From the IMG/VR virus record IMGVR_UViG_3300010354_000761, positions 1-22,161 of that record: a stretch of DNA of 22,161 nt; one strand, written 5' to 3'. Each line of letters starts with the position of its first letter. Positions within the stretch are counted from its first letter, which is position 1. The position numbers and the translations under genes were made by a program. The notes beneath the pieces were generated by a model. It made no database searches. It was given only the letters and a program-made list of their open reading frames with translations, and had not been told where the DNA came from. Of the stretch, positions 1,856 through 16,931 are shown in pieces. Source of the DNA: a virus.

Positions 1856-2509
1856 TTATTTTAATTGTTTTGATTGGAAATCTTTTCCACCAACTTTAGA
1901 ATCTTTTTTGGAGACCGAATCAGTAACTCCACGAACTAAAGAACTATAAATTTTCATTGAGCTATTAGCAACAATTTCTGCACTACCAGATGTTGCCAAT
2001 TTATATTTACTCTTAGCGTTAATTAAAACTTTTTTACCATCAATATCAATCGTCTCGCTTGCTTTTAATCTGATGTTTCCTTTACTCCCACCTTCTCCTA
2101 CAGCAATTAATTCAATATCAGTTCCTTGAAGTCTTATTTTTCCGTTTTTTGCATTAATGACAATGTTTCCATTCTCTGCTTTTAGAAATAAACTATCTTC
2201 TGCTTCTGTAACTCCTTTACCAAATCCACATTCAAGTTGAAAATGTCCAGGAGATATTGAAGTGGTCCACCCCTTTCTTGGTCCATCCTTATCCAAAGAA
2301 AGTTCATGTCTAGCATCAGATCCTTGAAGTAAAATATCAGCCGTTACATCTCCTTGTTTGTGAATGTGACCAAAACTAATAGAACCGTGATCATTGCCAT
2401 AACGAATTGCCGTATAATTTTGTTTGGCAGTGTTATTTTTTGATGGTTGTTTATTTGTTGTAGGAGAATTACCAACTTTTGTATTGTTGGTATTTTGGGA
2501 TGTTGGCAT
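1856..2509 (-). CDS. Spike-like virion protein with beta-repeat C-terminal half (217 aa)
   Basis: The first 30 residues are a low-complexity Asn/Thr/Lys/Gln linker. Residues 33-100 include IRYGNDHGSISFGHIH and look like a compact beta domain. Residues about 105-190 consist of short alternating strands (LFLKAENGNIVINAKNG, IRLQGTDIELIAV, NIRLKASETIDIDGKK), the pattern of a triple-stranded beta-helix such as the C-terminal spike of T4 gp5 or VgrG. No lysozyme motif is present. Because the gp5-type protein in this operon lacks such a needle, this protein may supply the membrane-piercing spike as a separate chain; that is inference. It is read just after the 1574-aa protein gene, with a gap of about 39 bp and no clear terminator. 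Confidence 0.75.
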   Translation of the reverse strand: MPTSQNTNNTKVGNSPTTNKQPSKNNTAKQNYTAIRYGNDHGSISFGHIHKQGDVTADILLQGSDARHELSLDKDGPRKGWTTSISPGHFQLECGFGKGVTEAEDSLFLKAENGNIVINAKNGKIRLQGTDIELIAVGEGGSKGNIRLKASETIDIDGKKVLINAKSKYKLATSGSAEIVANSSMKIYSSLVRGVTDSVSKKDSKVGGKDFQSKQLK

Positions 2510-2548
2510 TAGTATTAATAATTCAAGGTACTAGTATTTAATCTCGTT

Positions 2549-5500
2549 TTATTCATTCGGTATTGTGTCCTGCGGAGTTCTTGGGATATTAAGTCTAGGA
2601 TCATTGCTGGTAATATCAGTACCAGATCTCTGAATAGCACTTGGAGGTGTAGTGACTCTTCCAGTAATGCTTTCTTGTAGAGTGTCGTAAATCCTTATAG
2701 GTTCTCCAATAGTCGCATAATATCCAGCATACTTCACTCCCTTTTCAAAATAAACTGCACCATAGTAAGGTCTTCCATCTATGTATCTAGTTTGTTTTAG
2801 ACCAACTAAGTCAGTTACTTGAATGATTTTTTCTGGAGGTGCAATCGGATCTCTAACAACTTTGAAGATAGGTCTGAAAGTTGCATTAACTCCAGTTTCT
2901 GTGACCATCTCTATAATTGGGTAAATATCAAAACCTATACCTGGATTTACTACTTTAACAGCATTAATTCTACCAAAAGTATCGCAACTATATTCCAGTT
3001 CTGCTCCGTTGTTTGGAGTAATACGAAGTTCATCAACACCGCAGTTGTAATTGATTCCCGGATTTTCTACAATAACTTGATCCAAAACAAGAGTTGCTGG
3101 ATAACCTGGTCCAGATGGTTCTAAATATCCATTTCCAGGATCAAGAACATCAACTCTTTCAACAATACCCTTTCCACCAACTCTCTTTGCACATGGAGGA
3201 GGAATTAGTATTGCAGAAACTGCCATTGGATTTTTTGTCCATGGAGTTTCATCAGTCTTTACGAGAGTAATATCCTTTTCTATCAGCAGAGCAACACCAG
3301 AAGGATTATTGGTGAAGACTGATGCTATTTTAGGATCAACTTCTCCTCGCAAATTTGTCAATTCAATTTCAACATCATATTTTCCAGCAGTTACATTTGT
3401 TATGAATGTGTTTGCATCATCAAGTCTCACCCAAAGATTTTCTTGATTATAATAAGAACGACCTACTTCGGTTCCTCCAATTTTTAGGACGGCAGTATTA
3501 TCTGCCTGCAATGTAACTCTATATTCACCACTCTCTGGAAATTCAACCCCAGACCATTTCAAGTTAAACGATCCAATAACATTTGGATCAGGGGAAGAAA
3601 TACTTTTAAAGGTTTTTGGAGACACGGCATTTTCAAAAAATCCAGTCCAACGCCCCTCATTATATTTAAATAATGGTGGTCCGGAATAAGTTACTCCATT
3701 TTTCTCAGACACAGGAACAATAGATTCAGATGTCCTATTTGGAGATAATTGTCTTGCATTAGTTGCGGTTATACTCGCATTATTAATGTCATCATTTGCA
3801 TTAGCATCCCAGAAAATAATCCTTTGTTGTTTTTGATCTGGTCTTGGTCCAGTATCCAGAATTTCAGGATCTCTTGACCCGGGTTCTATTCCCTCAAATA
3901 CAATAGGGCCATATTTCTTATTTGCTTTAAATGTTCCTGTTGCTTTAGATGATCCTTTTGTTCCACTTAAAGGTCTAGAAAAAACCACAGGACCTTTACT
4001 TTCAGTTGGAATAGTAATCTTGGTTACAGCATATCCAAAATTTTTATCGTCATACCAATCAAAAGTGAAGTCAATTTCAATAATATCATTACCACCAGCC
4101 AACATGTAGTATTGATTACCTTCTTTAACAAAAAGACTTCCTGCGGGTTGTTCTTGTTCTTGCTTTACTACTAGTGGTGATTGCCAATCTTTCGTGTTGA
4201 AAATCTTTTTCGTAATAACACTGCTTGTAGAAACAACGGAGTTGGAAACTTCTACTGTTATTGTAAGTCTACCCTTTGTTAGGAATCTTTTCACTAAAGA
4301 TGGATTTTGTATATCAGGTGCATCTAACTGAGACACTTCCACGCCATCAATTAACAATCTACCATTATCATCTTTAGCACCTTTAATACCATAGAATCCA
4401 TCATAAGGAATATCCACTTGCCAATCATTTCTAAACACAGTTCCCGAAGAATCACTTCCGGGAGTTGGTAAAGGTTTCACTGGAGAAACTGCATATCTAT
4501 TCATAAAATTGCTCCATCCAGGAACAAATGTAGTTTCAATAATTGAAGATTCTGGAGTTGAAGTTGTAGTACCCTCTAAAATATAAGTCAGTTCAAAAGT
4601 AGTTCTACCAGTACCATCAACCTTACTTTTCTTACCGCTTTTAAAAATTCCATTTCCATTGGATACACTTATTTGTATATCGTCATTGTCGTTGCTAGAA
4701 CGAACAAAGTCTGCAAATATTGTTGTTCCAGTAACCTCTCCTTTTTTAACTTTTGCCTCTTTGTTTTTTCCTTTCTCTGAAATTAAACCCTGCTCCATTT
4801 TTCCAGGTCTTTTTGCACCTTCTGGATCTACACTTGCAACGACATTATAAACTACATTCTTTCTAACCTTGACTTTCTCAATTTTTTTGTCTTTATTTTT
4901 GTCTACATTTGTAATAACAAAACTGTCAAGACCATCTTGCGAAGTAAACACAAATCTCATATTAGAGTTTCGTTTCATTCTACCTTCACCATAAACCTTG
5001 AAAGATACTTCCTGTAAATTTGATGTTTCTTTCTGGGGAATTATTGTTGTGGTACTTTCTCTTCTTCCAGTAAATCTTACAGGAATCCATGAACTAGGAA
5101 ATCTAGTGGACCAAATTGGATTTGGTGGGCATCTTCCTTCTTGAACAGGAACTGGTTCTTTAGGTGGAACTGGTTCTGGAGCATCAATAGTAATTGCAAC
5201 ACCAAATGGATTTTCATACCAAGACTTGGAAGAAACTACTTTTTCAACTGTGGTAGAAACTTCAATATTGATTCCCAATGCCATTGGGTTTCCTTTAGAT
5301 AATGGCGCAAAGTCTTTCTGTTCAAGTTCTGCTCTGATTCTATATTTACCTGCCTTAAAAAATTTAGTCTCAACAGTTTTCCCAGTGCTTTGACCCGATC
5401 TAGTAAATCCTTGTTTTTTTATTATTACTTCATCTCCACCATTATTAACGTTCTTCAATCCATTTCCAATACCTGCTTTACCTCCCCCACTTGCATTACC

Positions 5501-7273
5501 AATGAAAATTTTTGCATTGTCATCGCAAGCAATTTCAATTCTATAATTACCATCAACAGGAAATTCAATATACTCCCACTTAATTACATGAACTCCAGCA
5601 AAACTATCTGTCTGAGCTTCCTTAGAAGATAAACTATAAGGAGAAACTCCATATTGGGATAGAAAATCATTTCCTGCAGATGTTACTCTCCAAAGTTTTC
5701 TATTTGCTTTATTGATATATTCTGTAGTGCTAAAAATACTTTTACTTTGCAAAGAAGTTTGATTACCAGCAGGTATAACTCTAGCTGCTGATAATTGTCT
5801 AGCATTAACTGCTGTTAATTTGGCATTAACATCACTTCCCCCACCATCAAAGAGATTTATTCTTTGTTGTCTTTGGTCAGGTCTTGGTCCGGTGTTTACA
5901 ATGTCAGGTGCTTTTGACCCTGCTGCTCTTCCTTCAAATATAATAGGACCATATTTTTTATTTGTCTTGAAAGTTCCTGTTGCTTTAACTGATCCTTTAC
6001 TTCCACTTAAAGGTCTCTTTAGTACAACAGGTCCACCTCTTTCGGTAGGAATTGTAATTTTGGTTGCAGCATATCCAGCAACACCGGGATTATCATCCCA
6101 ATCAAAAGTGAAATCAATTTCAACTATATCATTACCACCAGCCAACATGTAGTATTGATTACCTTCTTTAATAAACAAACTTCCAGCCGCTTGCGTTTCA
6201 GTTTTATAAACTGTTTGCGTTTCATATTGTATTTGATTTAACAAGTCAACTTGAATTGTATGATTGCCTTCTGTTATTGTTTTTGAAACAGGTTTTACTG
6301 GACCCTTAAAATCTCCAAGATCAAATAGTTTGTCTCCATCAACATAAAGAGTTGCAACATTATCACAGAGACCTCTAAAAATATATTCCCCAGAGATTGG
6401 AAAGTTTTCTTCCCACTCCATAGTAAAAGTAACTCCAGCATTATCACTTCCTCTAACTTCTGATGGTTTAACTGGAGATATGGCATAAGTATTCATAAAT
6501 TCGGACCAATCTTTATCAAAGGTCACATCATAAGATTGGTCAACAATTGTTCCATTACCTTTGGTTATTCTTATGGGTTTATTTTTTCGTGTTGTCCAAA
6601 AAGGATTTTGTAGTTGTTCAAGTTGTTTTTGATAAGTATCAATCTCTACTTGAATAGGATCTAAAGTATTTGAAGTATAAACTCTAGGATCCCAAACCCC
6701 AAGTTCTTCTCCATTTGGTCCGTAGTTAATCCCATATCCAACCTCAGTATCTGGGCAAGGAAAATATTCCTCAAAGTCATCTTCATCTGCAAAAATTTCA
6801 ACAGAGTCTGCCGTTTCACCCAATACGGAAGTTAAGACAGCGCCAGAACCAAACTGACACTCATCTCTTGCAGCAACGAGTGGTGGGAATTTATAACCAT
6901 GCCCACTCCTAACAATATCAACTGCCAGTAAAGATCCGTCTCTACCTATGACTGGATTGCCAACAGCACCTATACCATCTCCGCCAAAAATTTGAATCTC
7001 TGGTGGTCCACATTGAGTAATTGTTTGTATGCCACCACACTCATCTTTTTTTGTAGATACGATGTCGGTTGTGGTGAGTTTGTTTACATCATTGATCGTT
7101 AAGTAGAGTATTTCATTATTGCCATTAACGAATATAAAAATGGTTCCTGGATTATTTTTTGCATAAGTATTGGCTTCACAAATTGAAACGTTGTTAATGT
7201 ATCCAAGAACTGGATCAACATATCCAACTCTAATATCATCTATAGATGCTGGGCCAAATAAATTAAAAGGCAT
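2549..7273 (-). CDS. Giant virion structural protein with PA14-like modules and a ~670-residue duplication (1574 aa)
   Basis: It contains four PA14-like beta-sandwich modules, recognisable by a W-x-x-F-M-N-x-Y-A-x-S-P start, a hydrophobic G-E-Y-x-x-x-x-x-x-D-N-x-A-x-L strand pair and a terminal G-x-H/Y-x-I-x-V/A-x-L strand, at roughly residues 254-350, 530-690, 919-1030 and 1207-1350. Between the members of each pair lies a copy of a second module beginning AGSLF-I/V-KEGNQYYMLAGGND (residues about 362-498 and 1043-1178). Residues about 700-915 are a unique spacer rich in Lys. The C-terminal third carries repeated N/D-P-G-x-G-Y/F-type motifs. PA14 domains bind carbohydrate in other proteins, so a receptor or surface-binding baseplate appendage is a reasonable inference. 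The start ATG lies after a 45-bp gap from gp5 with a late-promoter-like box. Confidence 0.85.
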   Translation of the reverse strand: MPFNLFGPASIDDIRVGYVDPVLGYINNVSICEANTYAKNNPGTIFIFVNGNNEILYLTINDVNKLTTTDIVSTKKDECGGIQTITQCGPPEIQIFGGDGIGAVGNPVIGRDGSLLAVDIVRSGHGYKFPPLVAARDECQFGSGAVLTSVLGETADSVEIFADEDDFEEYFPCPDTEVGYGINYGPNGEELGVWDPRVYTSNTLDPIQVEIDTYQKQLEQLQNPFWTTRKNKPIRITKGNGTIVDQSYDVTFDKDWSEFMNTYAISPVKPSEVRGSDNAGVTFTMEWEENFPISGEYIFRGLCDNVATLYVDGDKLFDLGDFKGPVKPVSKTITEGNHTIQVDLLNQIQYETQTVYKTETQAAGSLFIKEGNQYYMLAGGNDIVEIDFTFDWDDNPGVAGYAATKITIPTERGGPVVLKRPLSGSKGSVKATGTFKTNKKYGPIIFEGRAAGSKAPDIVNTGPRPDQRQQRINLFDGGGSDVNAKLTAVNARQLSAARVIPAGNQTSLQSKSIFSTTEYINKANRKLWRVTSAGNDFLSQYGVSPYSLSSKEAQTDSFAGVHVIKWEYIEFPVDGNYRIEIACDDNAKIFIGNASGGGKAGIGNGLKNVNNGGDEVIIKKQGFTRSGQSTGKTVETKFFKAGKYRIRAELEQKDFAPLSKGNPMALGINIEVSTTVEKVVSSKSWYENPFGVAITIDAPEPVPPKEPVPVQEGRCPPNPIWSTRFPSSWIPVRFTGRRESTTTIIPQKETSNLQEVSFKVYGEGRMKRNSNMRFVFTSQDGLDSFVITNVDKNKDKKIEKVKVRKNVVYNVVASVDPEGAKRPGKMEQGLISEKGKNKEAKVKKGEVTGTTIFADFVRSSNDNDDIQISVSNGNGIFKSGKKSKVDGTGRTTFELTYILEGTTTSTPESSIIETTFVPGWSNFMNRYAVSPVKPLPTPGSDSSGTVFRNDWQVDIPYDGFYGIKGAKDDNGRLLIDGVEVSQLDAPDIQNPSLVKRFLTKGRLTITVEVSNSVVSTSSVITKKIFNTKDWQSPLVVKQEQEQPAGSLFVKEGNQYYMLAGGNDIIEIDFTFDWYDDKNFGYAVTKITIPTESKGPVVFSRPLSGTKGSSKATGTFKANKKYGPIVFEGIEPGSRDPEILDTGPRPDQKQQRIIFWDANANDDINNASITATNARQLSPNRTSESIVPVSEKNGVTYSGPPLFKYNEGRWTGFFENAVSPKTFKSISSPDPNVIGSFNLKWSGVEFPESGEYRVTLQADNTAVLKIGGTEVGRSYYNQENLWVRLDDANTFITNVTAGKYDVEIELTNLRGEVDPKIASVFTNNPSGVALLIEKDITLVKTDETPWTKNPMAVSAILIPPPCAKRVGGKGIVERVDVLDPGNGYLEPSGPGYPATLVLDQVIVENPGINYNCGVDELRITPNNGAELEYSCDTFGRINAVKVVNPGIGFDIYPIIEMVTETGVNATFRPIFKVVRDPIAPPEKIIQVTDLVGLKQTRYIDGRPYYGAVYFEKGVKYAGYYATIGEPIRIYDTLQESITGRVTTPPSAIQRSGTDITSNDPRLNIPRTPQDTIPNE
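3755..4146 (-). repeat. Internal repeat, second copy of the AGSLF module
   Basis: This part of the 1574-aa gene encodes residues about 1043-1178, opening with AGSLFVKEGNQYYMLAGGND and ending near T-N-A-R-Q-L. It matches the copy encoded at about 5795-6190 along its length, with identity visible at both protein and DNA level. Boundaries are approximate. Confidence 0.85.
5795..6190 (-). repeat. Internal repeat, first copy of the AGSLF module
   Basis: It encodes residues about 362-498, opening with AGSLFIKEGNQYYMLAGGND and continuing through GPRPDQRQQRI to V-N-A-R-Q-L. It is the partner of the copy at about 3755-4146. The flanking PA14-like modules are duplicated at the same spacing of roughly 665-680 residues, so the repeat is part of a larger duplicated unit. 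Confidence 0.85.
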
Positions 7274-10599: not shown

Positions 10600-13512
10600 T
10601 TACCCACCTTGATATAGGACATCAAATGGATCATCACCTTCGCTGCTTTCATCAAAGAAAAATGAAGATCCAGACGATTCTTGTCCATAACCACCAGAAA
10701 CATTATTTGGAACAGAATCTTCAACTATTATCATCTGTTCTGCGCCAGATTCATAAGAGGCATATGATTGAAGAATGTTTGCAATTTGAGGTTTAGTTCT
10801 CGCTAAATTAAGTTTTTCGGCAAGTCCTGGAGCAATAGAATCTAAACCTTGAGTAGTATCTGCGTCAAAAACAAATTCCTCTCCTCTTTCACCAATAAGA
10901 GCTTTTGTAGGTCCACCCACTCTACCACCTTTGGCAAGTTTTACTAAACCTCCACCACCTAAAAATTGTTTTAGTGTTGCCCTTACTCTCGCAGAACCTG
11001 CATAATCTTTAGCACCAATAGATCCAGACCCACCCCACTGTGCTCCAGGAATATCAAAAGCAAGACCAGAGTAGTGATAAGACCCCGGAGCATGACCACC
11101 AACAGGTCCAAATCCCTTAAACTCAGTAACTTGTATTCCTTTTGATTTAAAGAAATTATAAGCTCTTACTGCAGTATCTCTATCTCTAAAGGCAATATGA
11201 TCATGATAGTTTGAAGGTAGTCCATGTCCACCTTTATCAAATTTACCAAATGGAGTATTAGGATCGCCAGTGATGTATTGCGAAACGGCACCACCAATAC
11301 TACCCCTATCTAGTGAACCCATATCTCCCATTCTAGATCTCCCTTTACCAAAGCTTGATAATGCATCAGCAGCAAACTGATATCTTCTGGGATAATTTGG
11401 AACTCCAGCTTTTTCCATTTCTCGTTCAAAAATTTGAACGGCTTTCTTAACATCGGTTACACCTTTCAGTCTATTAAGAGTTCCATAAGATCTCATTTCT
11501 TTCATCATCCATTCAACTTGTGTATCTAATTTCCAAGGATCTTTTCCAGAAGATGCTGCCCATGCAACTAGTGCATCCCACCTACCACCACTTCCTGGTC
11601 CAGTGCCCCATTGCATAATTCCACGTCCTGGACCACCACCAAGTTGTCTAGACTGAGGATTAACCCCAGACTCTTGCATAAGATTACCAATTACGCCAGC
11701 AGCTGCTTGCTCTGTAAATCCATATCCAATCAGGTAATTAAAAACTTTCTCAGCATTCGTGTTTCCTACTAAAGAACCTGTTCCTGGTGGCATTTGATCT
11801 TCAGTTGGAGCACCTGGAGCTCCTCCACCTTCTTTTTTAAATCTAAGGTTTTCTTGAATTTCTCTCAGAGTCCTCTGAGCATTAGTTTCAGTTGCATCTT
11901 TAAACGAAGCAGCAACCCATTGACTAATATCTCCTCCCTCAGAAACAGCATCTAATGCTTTAGGATCAACAAATCCACCTTCAGCAAAAGCAGCAGCAAC
12001 TCCTCCTTTCAATTTTCCGTCATTTATTCCTTTAGAAATTAAAAGATTAATTCCAAGTCCAACATTTTCATAATCTCTTTGAGTTGGTTTTTGTCCTAAA
12101 AGAATTTTAGAGGTAATGGAGAGAATAGGACCAAAATAATCACTCTTTCCAAGATTCTTCCCCGCATTCAAAATCATATTAAATGGATTCATAAAATCCG
12201 GTAATTTTGGTTTTGGAAATAGTCCAAATAATTTTTCTTCTCCACCAACATCTGATCCTGGTTTTACATCAGTATCTTCTCTTGGTTTCTTGGCAGATAA
12301 TTTTCTTTTATATTTCTTAGATCCTTTACCTTTAGAAGCAACTCTTCTTACCCCACCACGCGATTTACCACCTCTCGTTATTCCACCTTCAGCATATTGC
12401 TTAGGTTTTGTTGGTTTTTTACCACCAAAAAATAAATCATATAAAGCTCCTCCAGCCATATCACCCAGTGTACCACCTGCAATAGCACCAAGAGCACCAG
12501 TTGCAAGTGCTAGAGGTCCTCCAGTGAGACCAAGCACTCCTGCCAATCCACCACCTATGGTTCCCAATATTGCAGCACCAATTGCACGGAACGCTGCTCT
12601 ACCAGGATTTTCCCCAAGAGCCCATGATAATCCAAAATCAATTAATGCTCCAACAATAGGAAGAGGTATTCTTTTTAAAAATGGTCTTACTGAAGAAAGA
12701 AGTGCTTTATTTCCACCACGACCCATAGTTACTTGAGGTCTTTGTCTGAATGGATTTCTAATATCAATGCCACCGGCACGACCACCACCACTTGTTGTTA
12801 CTCTAGGTCTTCCTCCAATTCCAGGTCTAGGTCTTGCGCCAGCAGATCCAGCACCTCTACCCCCACCAAATCCTCCAGATCCAGCAGCAACCATTCCTGC
12901 TACAATAGCAAGATTTAAAAACTGATTTAATAATCCCGAAAGTTGATCAAACTGTTTTACTCCATCATTACCAAAAAGATTTTTTACAAATCCACGAGTG
13001 GCATCATATGCTTTATATCCCCAATCAATAAAAGTTACAAGACCATCTAAGAGTTTTCCGCCAAGATTAAGAACAAAATCTGTTGCTTGTCCTAAAAATT
13101 TAACAATAGGAATTATTTTTGGAAGATGATCAACTAATCTAACAACAAAATATCCAAGGATAATATTTCCTATAAAGTTTTTAATCCAATCCAAAAATCC
13201 CATTTTAGGTAATTTTGTCATTGAAACTTTACCCTTCTCTGCCTTCGGTTTTGTTTCTAATTTTTCTTCTATTTTTTCTCTTCTCTTAGAACTCTCTTGC
13301 CTCTTCGCTTCATTTAATTTTTTCTTTTCTGCAGCTAAAGTACCTTTTAAAATAGAATCAACTTCTATTACTTTAACACGAATAATGCCAATGTTTTTTA
13401 CAGAGTTTTCAGACAAAGAAATTGAAGAAGAACTCTTAACAAACACTTTACTGACCTTTGCAAGTGCTCCTCCTTTTGATGATGGTAAAAACTTTTGAGT
13501 GTTGATTGCCAT
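10600..13512 (-). CDS. Tape-measure-like tail protein with lysozyme and M15-peptidase-like domains (970 aa)
   Basis: Order: a charged coil (residues 60-98); a hydrophobic segment around NIILGYFVVRLVDHLPKI (104-165); a Gly/Arg-rich region (205-245); a Gly/Ala hydrophobic stretch (285-365); a phage tail lysozyme-like domain (about 585-720); an M15-like domain (about 770-830); and a GEEFVFDA motif near residue 890. The lysozyme domain has the likely catalytic Glu614 in G-N-L-M-Q-E-S-G, then GRGIMQW. The second domain has S-Y-H-Y-S-G-L-A-F-D, an exact fit to the S-x-H-x-x-G-x-A-x-D zinc site of D,D-carboxypeptidases, but no E-x-W-H-type third ligand follows. The hydrophobic segment and GEEF motif are shared with the 838-aa upstream protein. 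I infer a tail-lumen protein that opens peptidoglycan during DNA entry. A GAGGT precedes the ATG. Confidence 0.8.
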   Translation of the reverse strand: MAINTQKFLPSSKGGALAKVSKVFVKSSSSISLSENSVKNIGIIRVKVIEVDSILKGTLAAEKKKLNEAKRQESSKRREKIEEKLETKPKAEKGKVSMTKLPKMGFLDWIKNFIGNIILGYFVVRLVDHLPKIIPIVKFLGQATDFVLNLGGKLLDGLVTFIDWGYKAYDATRGFVKNLFGNDGVKQFDQLSGLLNQFLNLAIVAGMVAAGSGGFGGGRGAGSAGARPRPGIGGRPRVTTSGGGRAGGIDIRNPFRQRPQVTMGRGGNKALLSSVRPFLKRIPLPIVGALIDFGLSWALGENPGRAAFRAIGAAILGTIGGGLAGVLGLTGGPLALATGALGAIAGGTLGDMAGGALYDLFFGGKKPTKPKQYAEGGITRGGKSRGGVRRVASKGKGSKKYKRKLSAKKPREDTDVKPGSDVGGEEKLFGLFPKPKLPDFMNPFNMILNAGKNLGKSDYFGPILSITSKILLGQKPTQRDYENVGLGINLLISKGINDGKLKGGVAAAFAEGGFVDPKALDAVSEGGDISQWVAASFKDATETNAQRTLREIQENLRFKKEGGGAPGAPTEDQMPPGTGSLVGNTNAEKVFNYLIGYGFTEQAAAGVIGNLMQESGVNPQSRQLGGGPGRGIMQWGTGPGSGGRWDALVAWAASSGKDPWKLDTQVEWMMKEMRSYGTLNRLKGVTDVKKAVQIFEREMEKAGVPNYPRRYQFAADALSSFGKGRSRMGDMGSLDRGSIGGAVSQYITGDPNTPFGKFDKGGHGLPSNYHDHIAFRDRDTAVRAYNFFKSKGIQVTEFKGFGPVGGHAPGSYHYSGLAFDIPGAQWGGSGSIGAKDYAGSARVRATLKQFLGGGGLVKLAKGGRVGGPTKALIGERGEEFVFDADTTQGLDSIAPGLAEKLNLARTKPQIANILQSYASYESGAEQMIIVEDSVPNNVSGGYGQESSGSSFFFDESSEGDDPFDVLYQGG

Positions 13513-13517
13513 CTATC

Positions 13518-16034
13518 TTACCTCATCATTCCAAGTGTTTGTTGCTTTGTTCTCATTCCTTTTGTAGAAGCACTAAAGTTTGGTGTCCTAGTCTTTGAAG
13601 ATCTTCCGCCACCTTGTCCTCCACCACCTATCAAATTAGCTTTTGTTCTGACAACTTTTACAGAAGGTTTTACTGCTGGTTTCACTCCCTTTACTTTTGG
13701 TTTTGATTTTGCAAGTTGTGCTTGTTGTTGAGATACTCTTGACCCACCACCAAACCAACCTGCCTTATCCCACCAAGGACGTTTTGCTTCAAGTGCTTGA
13801 GTATTTTTATCCTTTGGTTTGCCAGACACTCCTAACAATCCACCAAGCAAAGTTTTACTTCCAGCAAGTCCCATAGACTCGGCAGCAGTTCTTTTTCCAC
13901 CTAAGATCATATCAACATCACCCTTTCCTTTCATAGGATTTAATTGATGCAATGCTTGAAGTCTTTGTTGAACTGTTTTTCCTTTACCAAACAAAACCCC
14001 CATAGGGTCTTTCATCTTATCAAAGTCATACTTATCTTCTATCCTATAACCACCACCTTCTTTTTTAGATCTTTCATTTGCCCAGAATTGACCCAAAATA
14101 TTTTTTGCATTCTTAGCAGACTCACTCATTTTTCCTTTTTCATCAACATAATCAGCATACTGAACTCTTATACCACCCGCTTTGAGTTTCTTCAAGAAAC
14201 TTTTTTGTGTTTCAAGTGCAGGATTTCCATCTTTAGCTCCTTGAGCACGAAGTTCTTTTATTTTTGCTTCTGCTTTTGAAATTTCAGATCCTGTTCTTTT
14301 CTTTGCTCTTTGAATTGCTTTCTGAAGTTCTTGTTGAGATTCTTTACCCAAATCCATTTCACTAATAGGACCACCAAATCCACCTAACATTTGTTTAGCA
14401 TAAATTGACCCAGCATCTCTATATGTTGCTGCTCCAGGACCTTGCAACTTTTCTCCAATTTCTTGGAACATATTTTTGGATGTTGATTTGCTCCCAGAGG
14501 GTTTTGCACCTGAAATTTTCTGTTGAGCAGCACCCATAATCTTTGAAATAATATTACCAGAAGGTGTTTTTATTCCTGTACTATTAGCAATTCTAGCAAT
14601 TGTACCAACAGGATCGGATAATAGAGATCCTGATGAAGATTTTGCGGAAGATCCTGAAGTAGAAGGAATCCCCCAGGTAGATTGCTTACTCAAATCTGCT
14701 CCAAATTTATATCTAATAAACCTATTGATTGCGCTTAAAGGATCCTTGTTGAATGGTAGATTAGTATTTGCATCACGATATCCAAAACTTCTATCACCGC
14801 CTATCATTCCGCCGCCAGCTGCATATATGGTGCCACTCATCAATTTTGGTTTATTAGTTCCTCCCCCAGCAGCATTCATTGCTTCAAGAGTATCAACTCC
14901 ATATTTTTCAACTGCTCCGCGAGACATGACAAATTCGCCATCACTCAACATAGCAGGGACTTTATCTACACCCTTTTCTCCACTCACAAATCCACTGGCA
15001 AATCCACCACCACTAAAAGCACGGAAAAGACCACCACCATTAAACATTCCACCAAAACCACGTTGAAGAACTTGCTCACTCTGTAATTGAGCACCTCCAG
15101 GAGTTCCTTGTCCTGGTTTTATGCCTTCTCTTTTTTGTTCATTTTGTTGCGAAGCATAGTAAGCTCCTACACCACCAGCAACTGCAAGAGATGCAACAGG
15201 ATTTCTAGCAATCAGTTTTAATAGAGATGGTATTGCAACCTTGCCGATACGGAAGATAAATCCTCCGACCATTTTGGTCAAACCTAAAGTTAATCTACCA
15301 AAAGATGTTCCAAATAAAATATAAGAACTAAGAAGTGCTGGCCACCAATCTTTTACAAAACGAATGATAGATTTAACTTTACTTGCATTTTTAGGATCAC
15401 CTAACCACTCAACAAGTTTATAAACGATTCTTCCAAGAATAATAGTTGTAAAAAATTGTATTATTCTATCAAGTAAAGATTTGACGGGGGCAATTATTTT
15501 CTCTGCTACTTTTTTTAGTCCTTCAAATCTTTTTTCTAATTTACTTTCAGCAAGTCCTCTTTTTTCTTGCTCTGCTTTTCTTCTATTATATGCATCAGTA
15601 TCATCAGATATTTTATTTTGCTGCTTCAAAGTTTCACTTATTGAATCCATAGAAGCGGCGATTGCTGCAATATTGTCTTCTAAAGTTCTAGATATGGGAG
15701 ATGCTGCTAAAGAAGCAGTTCCTGGCAAAGATTTAAGTTGACTTGCTCCTATAATTTTTTGTTTAACACTGCCAATACCAAAAGAACCCGCTGTTATTTT
15801 CTTTTTCTTTACTTCAAATCTACCTTTATCCTTTTTACTTTTGACTCTTTTATATTCTTCAGTCAAAAGCATAACTTCTTCAGTAGGAATTGTTTTTTTG
15901 GTCATCCTACTCTTGACCATTGCCTCTTTAAGAAGAGTCAGATAAGTTTCATAATCAAGGTCAAAAACATCATCAAGCCCAATAAGCCTCAGTACTCTAA
16001 CATCTATTTCCTCTTTTGGATTAGAAATGGGCAT
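13518..16034 (-). CDS. Tail tape-measure-like protein, gp29 analogue (838 aa)
   Basis: It has an alpha-helical charged N-terminal third (coil around residues 118-185), a hydrophobic segment I-I-Q-F-F-T-T-I-I-L-G-R-I-V-Y-K-L-V-E-W (191-210) extending to about 260, and a tape-measure signature near residues 352-380: G-V-D-K-V-P-A-M-L-S-D-G-E-F-V-M, then AVEKYG. The V-P-A-M-L-x-x-G-E-F-V pattern is widespread in tail tape-measure proteins. The remainder is Lys/Gly/Ser-rich with coils around 580-660. It lies directly after the frameshift chaperone genes, the usual position of a tape measure, and its ATG overlaps the 62-aa ORF by 14 bp. T4 gp29 (590 aa) fills this role in T4; I infer the analogous function. 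Its stop is 5 bp before the 970-aa paralog. Confidence 0.75.
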   Translation of the reverse strand: MPISNPKEEIDVRVLRLIGLDDVFDLDYETYLTLLKEAMVKSRMTKKTIPTEEVMLLTEEYKRVKSKKDKGRFEVKKKKITAGSFGIGSVKQKIIGASQLKSLPGTASLAASPISRTLEDNIAAIAASMDSISETLKQQNKISDDTDAYNRRKAEQEKRGLAESKLEKRFEGLKKVAEKIIAPVKSLLDRIIQFFTTIILGRIVYKLVEWLGDPKNASKVKSIIRFVKDWWPALLSSYILFGTSFGRLTLGLTKMVGGFIFRIGKVAIPSLLKLIARNPVASLAVAGGVGAYYASQQNEQKREGIKPGQGTPGGAQLQSEQVLQRGFGGMFNGGGLFRAFSGGGFASGFVSGEKGVDKVPAMLSDGEFVMSRGAVEKYGVDTLEAMNAAGGGTNKPKLMSGTIYAAGGGMIGGDRSFGYRDANTNLPFNKDPLSAINRFIRYKFGADLSKQSTWGIPSTSGSSAKSSSGSLLSDPVGTIARIANSTGIKTPSGNIISKIMGAAQQKISGAKPSGSKSTSKNMFQEIGEKLQGPGAATYRDAGSIYAKQMLGGFGGPISEMDLGKESQQELQKAIQRAKKRTGSEISKAEAKIKELRAQGAKDGNPALETQKSFLKKLKAGGIRVQYADYVDEKGKMSESAKNAKNILGQFWANERSKKEGGGYRIEDKYDFDKMKDPMGVLFGKGKTVQQRLQALHQLNPMKGKGDVDMILGGKRTAAESMGLAGSKTLLGGLLGVSGKPKDKNTQALEAKRPWWDKAGWFGGGSRVSQQQAQLAKSKPKVKGVKPAVKPSVKVVRTKANLIGGGGQGGGRSSKTRTPNFSASTKGMRTKQQTLGMMR

Positions 16035-16209
16035 TGCTCATCTGTTGTTTTTGTTTTAGTTCTTCTTCTTCAAGATGCTGTTGCAACATTGTTACATATA
16101 TGTCTCTTTCCCACGGGATCATATTTTCAATCTCCCATAGTGAATATTTATGGTATTGTATAAGAGAAAAATTAAGACGAAAGTAACTCTCAAGGTCCAT
16201 GTGGACCAT
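16021..16209 (-). CDS. 62-aa ORF downstream of gp26, probable frameshift (T) extension of a tail assembly chaperone
   Basis: The ORF reads MVHMDLESYFRLNFSL, then S-L-W-E-I-E-N-M-I-P-W-E-R-D-I-Y and a charged helical tail. The W-E-I-x-x-M-P-W-x-x-R pattern resembles the short second chaperone ORF (T of lambda GT) that precedes tape-measure genes in many tailed phages. Neither candidate ATG (16209 or 16200) has a Shine-Dalgarno, and both lie in or at the edge of a hairpin, so independent initiation looks poor. The frame is -1 relative to the gp26-type gene, whose stop lies 2 bp upstream, and a slippery heptamer joins the two. In cyanophages this position is sometimes labelled gp51, but T4 gp51 is about 250 aa, so I do not use that name. 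It overlaps the 838-aa gene by 14 bp. Confidence 0.7.
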   Translation of the reverse strand: MVHMDLESYFRLNFSLIQYHKYSLWEIENMIPWERDIYVTMLQQHLEEEELKQKQQMSNAHF

Positions 16210-16931
16210 GCTTATACGAAAAAACTTGCTAAGCCCTCAAGAACAACTTCGCTTTCTATTTCCGTAACAGGGTTTTTGACTTTAATTGTATGGGAAAGTT
16301 TTGGCATAGTCTCAAAGAATTTTTCAATATCTTTGAACTGAGAAGAGTTCATTGATTCTAAGAACTCATTCATTTCTTTTTTAGTCACATCAGATGAAGT
16401 CCACACTTCTTCCTCAGTAAAAATCTTATCAATACATGCTGCAATAAGTTCAAAGGACTGATCCATTGCATTCTTATCATTAAAATCAAAATTATTTTTA
16501 ATAAATTGATCAAGTGAAGGATATTTCATTTCCATCATAATAGAATTGTCAACTTTAATTCTATTAGTATGTTGTTCATTTTTTTGAACTTTAATGTCGT
16601 CCAAATTAATTTTTACCGGTACTTGAGTTTCCCCATCATCTGGGCAAATAATATTTACTTCAAGTTCTTCACCAACAGACTTACCACGAATATTTAAAAA
16701 CAAATATTCAATATCAAAGGTAGGCAGTGATTCTACCTTTACATCTTTAGTAAGGATACAACTTTTAATTACTGATTTAATTGCCGTAGTAATTTGCTTA
16801 GTATCTTCGCTCTCTAAAGCAATTACAAGCAATTTTTCTTCCTTGACAAGAAAAGGTCTGTATTGAATTGTTTGTCCAGTTGAAGGCAATTCAAGTTCAT
16901 ACGTTGGTGTAGCAATCTTTGGTAAAGGCAT
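16021..16931 (-). CDS. Predicted -1 frameshift product: gp26-type chaperone fused to the 62-aa ORF (303 aa)
   Basis: If ribosomes slip by -1 at T TTT TTC (16224-16218), the gp26-type protein continues after its second terminal Phe (residue 238) with R-I-S and then the whole 62-aa ORF, giving a 303-residue fusion ending at 16021. I checked the codons: TTT TTT CGT ATA AGC ATG follow one another with no stop. In lambda and many other phages a small fraction of such a longer chaperone is needed to load the tape measure and recruit tube subunits. Here the fusion is inferred from sequence architecture only; the unshifted product ends two codons after the slip site. Confidence 0.65.
16194..16238 (-). 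promoter_or_regulatory. Programmed -1 ribosomal frameshift signal
   Basis: On the transcribed strand three elements lie in order. A Shine-Dalgarno-like GAGGG is at 16238-16234. Nine bases later comes the heptamer T TTT TTC at 16224-16218, in the correct phase with the gp26-type reading frame. After a 10-nt spacer, the hairpin GGTCC-ACAT-GGACC occupies 16207-16194. The zero-frame stop TAA is at 16214-16212. The same three-part layout (upstream Shine-Dalgarno, slippery run, downstream stem) drives frameshifting in E. coli dnaX. The five-pair GC-rich stem is notable in such AT-rich DNA. Confidence 0.75.
16212..16931 (-). CDS. 26: Baseplate hub / tail assembly protein gp26 type (239 aa)
   Basis: The protein starts MPLPKIATPTYELELPSTGQ, then Y-R-P-F-L-V-K-E-E-K-L-L-V-I-A-L-E-S-E-D, the opening typical of the T4 gp26-type base plate family (T4 gp26 is 208 aa). 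The middle includes I-C-P-D-D-G-E-T-Q and VPVKINLDDI; the last third is helical (MNEFLESMNSSQFKDIEKFF) and ends V-V-L-E-G-L-A-S-F-F-V. T4 gp26 is assigned to baseplate hub assembly. Here its place directly before a tape-measure-like gene, plus the frameshift signal at its 3' end, argue that it acts as a tail assembly chaperone. It is the first gene of the minus-strand operon and has a perfect TATAAATA late promoter 28 bp upstream of its ATG. Confidence 0.8.
   Translation of the reverse strand: MPLPKIATPTYELELPSTGQTIQYRPFLVKEEKLLVIALESEDTKQITTAIKSVIKSCILTKDVKVESLPTFDIEYLFLNIRGKSVGEELEVNIICPDDGETQVPVKINLDDIKVQKNEQHTNRIKVDNSIMMEMKYPSLDQFIKNNFDFNDKNAMDQSFELIAACIDKIFTEEEVWTSSDVTKKEMNEFLESMNSSQFKDIEKFFETMPKLSHTIKVKNPVTEIESEVVLEGLASFFV

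Follow-up and report, generated by a model that had tools for sequence, protein, structure and literature searches.

A predicted -1 frameshift at the gp26 3' end of T4-like phages and its probable counterpart in the T4 paralogues gp26 and gp51

On the minus strand of a 22,161-nucleotide viral sequence (IMG/VR record IMGVR_UViG_3300010354_000761, here called the window), a gp26-type baseplate gene ends where a small open reading frame runs on in the -1 frame. This raises the question of whether the two are separate genes or whether ribosomes pass from one into the other. A review describes G-T frameshifting as a conserved feature of long-tailed phages 'except T4' (PMC5009743). In T4 itself, gp26 and gp51 are listed as hub assembly chaperones, of which gp51 is needed, is absent from the particle and has a function called unknown (PMC3004832).

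Our reading, which we hold with a probability of about 0.9, is that the gp26 gene yields two tail assembly chaperones through an inferred -1 frameshift, and that the T4 lineage uses two paralogous genes instead. The data directly establish the sequence elements, their conservation and covariation, the paralogy and the predicted fold.

Presumed signal elements at the gp26 3' end

The gp26 gene (16212..16931, minus strand) extends from an ATG at 16931 to a TAA at 16214-16212 and encodes a zero-frame product of 239 aa. In a Pfam scan this product matches T4_baseplate (PF12322) with 258.4 bits against a cut-off of 24.5, and from the profile match and predicted fold we assign it as a putative G-like tail assembly chaperone. 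Its 3' end reads GAG GGC TTA GCA AGT TTT TTC GTA TAA, followed by GCAT GGTCC ACAT GGACC. More specifically, the slip site T_TTT_TTC (16218..16224), recognized from sequence and conservation, is in phase with gp26 and is preceded at a distance of 9 nt by a Shine-Dalgarno (SD)-like GAGGG (16234..16238), the presumed upstream stimulator, which is also supported by codon constraint in relatives. The zero-frame stop TAA (16212..16214) follows one codon past the slip site. A 5-bp hairpin GGTCC-ACAT-GGACC (16194..16207), the presumed downstream stimulator, begins 10 nt past the heptamer; its arms, GGTCC at 16207-16203 and GGACC at 16198-16194, enclose the loop ACAT and covary in relatives at all five pairs.

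The -1 frame (16021..16236) is open from about 16236 to a stop at 16023-16021 and would form a T-like extension. Its ATG-initiated part (16209-16021) comprises 62 aa and is named gp51 or baseplate hub assembly catalyst in the annotation of relatives. A -1 shift at the heptamer predicts a 303-aa product, which covers phrog_150 positions 5-281 of 282. All of these elements, their spacings, the open -1 frame and the 303-aa form had been proposed in the earlier note and proved exact to the base; its placing of the stop two codons after the slip site holds when the stop itself is included, as one sense codon (GTA) lies between. An Rfam search of 15900-16500 returned nothing above the gathering score, and an NCBIfam search gave no meaningful match. 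The heptamer alone proves little, since the window contains further in-phase XXXYYYN strings, including two TTTTTTC in other genes; position, conservation and context have to carry the case.

The arrangement resembles that of E. coli dnaX, where an SD-like element, a slippery heptamer and a hairpin accompany a -1 shift that gives a shorter product. In gp26 the shifted product would be the longer one, and the heptamer is U-rich rather than A-rich. A list of shift-prone E. coli motifs includes U_UU.U_UU.C, and heptamers of the H_HH.U_UU.Y type rank with the most efficient in that host (PMC4066793).

In the mechanism that we propose, most ribosomes would stop at the TAA and release the 239-aa gp26 as the G-like form. 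The remaining minority, held up at the SD-like GAGGG and the downstream hairpin, would slip one base back on U_UUU_UUC, with both Phe tRNAs re-pairing, and would continue in the -1 frame to give a 303-aa gp26 with a C-terminal extension as the GT-like form. The analogy with lambda suggests that G-like copies, being numerous, may coat the tape-measure protein and that the few GT-like copies may recruit the tube protein. In the T4 lineage, with the slip site gone, gp26 without the extension and gp51 with the extension in frame would supply both forms. The slip itself, its rate, the roles of the SD-like element and the hairpin, and the binding partners are inferred.

Predicted fold, likely role and neighboring genes

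To which class of protein does gp26 belong? An alignment-based AlphaFold2 model of gp26 reached a mean pLDDT of 86.7; a single-sequence prediction (pLDDT 37) was dropped in its favor. For the N-terminal 90 residues of the model, the top PDB matches are 3fgx (Z 8.0), the HK97 tail assembly chaperone 2ob9 (Z 7.9) and YqbN 3klu (Z 7.2), and Foldseek likewise places 2ob9 first (E 0.38). These scores are modest, Z reaching at most 8 across about 85 residues, and they carry no information on the rest of gp26, which is about twice as long as the HK97 and YqbN proteins and shares only 5-10% sequence identity with them. Searching the PDB by sequence with a gp26 profile retrieved no meaningful relative, and none of the Pfam chaperone families matched the window gp26 in a Pfam scan. 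Phage_TAC_5 (PF08890), of which we take YqbN to be a member, matched neither the window gp26 nor T4, KVP40 or P-SSM2. The earlier inference that gp26 is a chaperone thus gains support from a predicted fold with modest scores. The fourth PDB match is 5ir0 (Z 5.0 over model residues 6-90; the next row scores 3.9), ORF19 of a Vibrio cholerae PICI-like element, and this satellite protein may share the modeled tail chaperone fold.

Even with a genuine frameshift, gp26 could be a structural component of the hub, as annotated, rather than a chaperone of the tape measure. Records call it baseplate hub, and genetic work cited in the T4 review places it there, but that review also classes gp26 and gp51 among the hub assembly chaperones and has gp51 required yet not in the particle (PMC3004832). 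The top fold matches are tail chaperones, and the frameshift layout with its tape-measure-like neighbor matches the lambda G/GT-H order, so we regard a purely structural role as unlikely.

As in lambda gpG/gpGT, a short main product and a rarer, C-terminally extended one are predicted from a -1 slip near the 3' end of a gene just upstream of a tape-measure-like gene. The differences are also clear: gp26 has 239 aa and continues beyond its chaperone-like N-terminal domain, matches no Pfam chaperone family, and carries T_TTT_TTN with SD-like and hairpin elements, whereas the lambda slip site is G_GGA_AAG. Furthermore, some gp26 relatives use two genes instead. Both gpG and gpGT are absent from the mature lambda virion (PMC5009743), which parallels the absence of T4 gp51 from the particle (PMC3004832).

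Directly downstream, with a start that overlaps the end of the -1 ORF, lies a gene for an 838-aa protein (13518..16034, minus strand), and many relatives have a gene of roughly 530-870 aa next after the -1 ORF, sometimes with one small ORF between. The earlier note had likewise called the adjoining gene tape-measure-like; its identity as a tape measure rests only on weak PHROG tape-measure matches and one VPAMLSDGEFVMSRGAV stretch. An attempt to link the 838-aa protein to T4 gp29 failed, as phrog_1283 was absent from the single-gene phages searched, and we call it no more than tape-measure-like. Next to it, a 970-aa protein (10600-13512, minus strand) combines a Phage_lysozyme2 domain with tape-measure-like matches; with two such neighbors, either could be the tape measure. 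Elsewhere on the minus strand of the window, a 1574-aa protein (2549-7273) has long internal repeats, namely two copies of an AGSLF[IV]KEGNQYYMLAGGNDI[VI]EIDFTFDW region, and adjacent proteins of 240 and 220 aa (461-1183 and 1183-1845) look paralogous, sharing CLEGPE..VY.RG.L and later motifs.

Conservation of the slip site and its context

In an initial scan, every viral contig examined at the gp26 end (gp26 identity 73-95%) had the heptamer in the same phase along with a homologous -1 ORF of about 60 aa; a Vibrio query had no relative among the viral contigs. Among cultured cyanophages, S-SM2 has a gp26 that is 84.9% identical. With wider sampling, 187/187 relatives outside the Ackermannviridae that have a readable gp26 end show T_TTT_TTN in phase and no more than one codon ahead of the gp26 stop, together with a homologous -1 ORF. 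The groups include Kyanoviridae, Aeromonas and Cronobacter Straboviridae, Menderavirus and Pootjesviridae, with phages such as Melnitz, S-CRM01, pf16, Vibrio D490, Stenotrophomonas YB07, Aeromonas Asswx_1, Cronobacter S13, Rhizobium N34 and Agrobacterium Atu_ph07. KVP40, P-SSM2 and phiN3 agree with the pattern as well, the heptamer of phiN3 lying two codons ahead of the stop.

Conservation acts on the nucleotides rather than on the residues. The A-site codon of the slip site is TTC in 130 cases, TTA in 28, TTT in 27 and TTG in 2, so that the residue switches between Phe and Leu but the slippery run is retained. For the first Phe, all 154 unique sequences use TTT, and this codon ranks second of 228 columns by excess codon identity, exceeded only by a gene-start codon; the codon before it ends in T whatever its residue. 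Away from the 3' end, the 208 gp26 genes contain an in-phase TTTTTTN only 14 times in 48,712 codon steps, and just 14 of 698 other F[FL] dipeptides take the slippery form. Set against 187/187 at the 3' end, these figures argue that the heptamer is not there by chance, although the sequences are related and the counts are not independent events.

The -1 region might instead be a separate 62-aa protein, made by independent initiation or by termination-reinitiation at an ATG (16209 or 16200) just past the gp26 stop. An ATG does occur near the junction in 136/202 relatives, and public records list the -1 ORF as a gene of its own, although it is unannotated in those of Asswx_1 and S13. However, 66 of the 202 loci have no ATG in the -1 frame near the junction, 35 have no ATG, GTG or TTG there, and 192 have no SD-like 4-mer ahead of an ATG. 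Separate initiation would also leave the conservation of the heptamer unexplained, and in T4 gp51 the same region is fused in frame to a gp26-like body. We consider such a separate protein very improbable.

The context of the heptamer is constrained as well. Where relatives have the upstream Glu-Gly pair, it is encoded by GAA GGY in 0/149 cases, although these genes otherwise encode Glu by GAA in 72% of cases and Gly by GGY in 57%; its avoidance means that an SD-like purine run is always kept upstream of the slip site. Across the window and 76 close relatives, each of the five pairs in the stem shows covariation, with 44 cells altered on both sides versus 11.6 in shuffles, and 85.6% of cells are paired versus at most 52.5% when the stem is slid. 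The hairpin is often incomplete among more distant relatives, and for the window itself the gain in RNA fold stability over shuffles is mild (z -1.5). Stuttering of RNA polymerase on the U run, with some mRNAs carrying the fused frame, can hardly be sustained: the runs are homopolymeric and reach eight T in many members of the Melnitz group, but in the window and most relatives the run is exactly six T long and is closed by C, A or G, and the SD-like codon constraint and the covarying hairpin at ribosomal spacing fit translation.

The conservation expected by the earlier note under ribosomal frameshifting is thus borne out across the cyanophages for heptamer, phase, SD-like element and -1 ORF, and far beyond them for all but the SD-like element; covariation of the hairpin holds among the closer cyanophage relatives. 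The same note had named relatives that keep the -1 ORF but lose the heptamer or change the frame relation as grounds for refutation. None was seen outside the Ackermannviridae. Within that group, the -1 ORF and the frame relation persist without the full heptamer in nineteen Kuttervirus-like loci and in four more distant phages; the junction is [ACG]TT TTY NNN TAA, with only T_TTY left. U_UUC and U_UUU tetramers can promote -1 shifts in E. coli (PMC4066793), so slippage through the A-site codon alone is conceivable there, without a demonstration. In Aeromonas phage TSW001 the junction is instead CTT TTC, two codons ahead of the stop. Beside this heptamer-less site, directly past the gp26 stop (3239-3285 of that locus), we noted by eye a longer hairpin of about AACCCCTC/GAGGGGTT, possibly an independent stimulator.

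Relation to T4 gp26 and gp51

How T4 fits this pattern follows from a comparison of its two genes with the cyanophage fusion. T4 gp26 and gp51 both belong to PF12322 and cover phrog_150 positions 14-235 and 13-280, respectively. T4 gp51 joins the extension in frame to a gp26-like body, and its C-terminus is homologous to the -1 ORF; the available part of the KVP40 record likewise notes that the small ORF of that phage resembles the gp51 C-terminus. T4 gp26 has no slip site, its 3' end reading GAG TTC TTT GAG TTA CTA TAA, and the two genes lie divergently on opposite strands. Judged by their sequences, T4 gp26 and gp51 are paralogues, gp26 corresponding to the putative unshifted product and gp51 to the putative frameshifted one. 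The recognition of gp51 as the in-frame equivalent goes beyond the earlier note.

Two gene copies, a gp29 match and no slip site occur together in T4, Tegunavirus Porter, RB43 and Aeromonas 31, and each of the other 15 phages searched has a single gp26-type body and lacks a gp29 match. In a tree of the gp26 domain, gp51 and the duplicated gp26 group separately, and the duplication is neither dated nor securely placed. The single gene with a frameshift is inferred to be the older state, as it is found across several families and the duplicated form in one, although the tree does not settle this; in the T4 lineage, gene duplication has apparently replaced the slip. We therefore think it likely that the T4 superfamily does not stand outside G/GT frameshifting: a single-gene chaperone with a frameshift would be widespread and probably older, gp26 and gp51 would be its two forms split into paralogues, and duplication would have replaced the recoding signal along with a change of the tape-measure gene.

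If this is true, the T4 exception is closed, gp51 and gp26 are given a testable job, and a gene duplication is seen to have taken the place of a recoding signal. Frameshifting of the G/GT type, described as conserved 'except T4', would then span most of the T4 superfamily, with the shift itself inferred from sequence. None of the T4-like phage records inspected annotates the 303-aa product, and some have no extension ORF at all. Our literature search, which did not extend to Xu et al. 2004, preprints or most subscription papers, found no report of a gp26 frameshift or of this reading of T4 gp26 and gp51, and the available main text of the PRFect and GeneTack survey papers contains no cyanophage or baseplate case.

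The two-gene arrangement is not uniform. In RB43 the gp51-like and gp26-like genes are adjacent and in tandem (2501-3794 of the locus analyzed), unlike those of T4, and the 3' end of the gp26-like gene carries G TTT TTA at the position of the heptamer.
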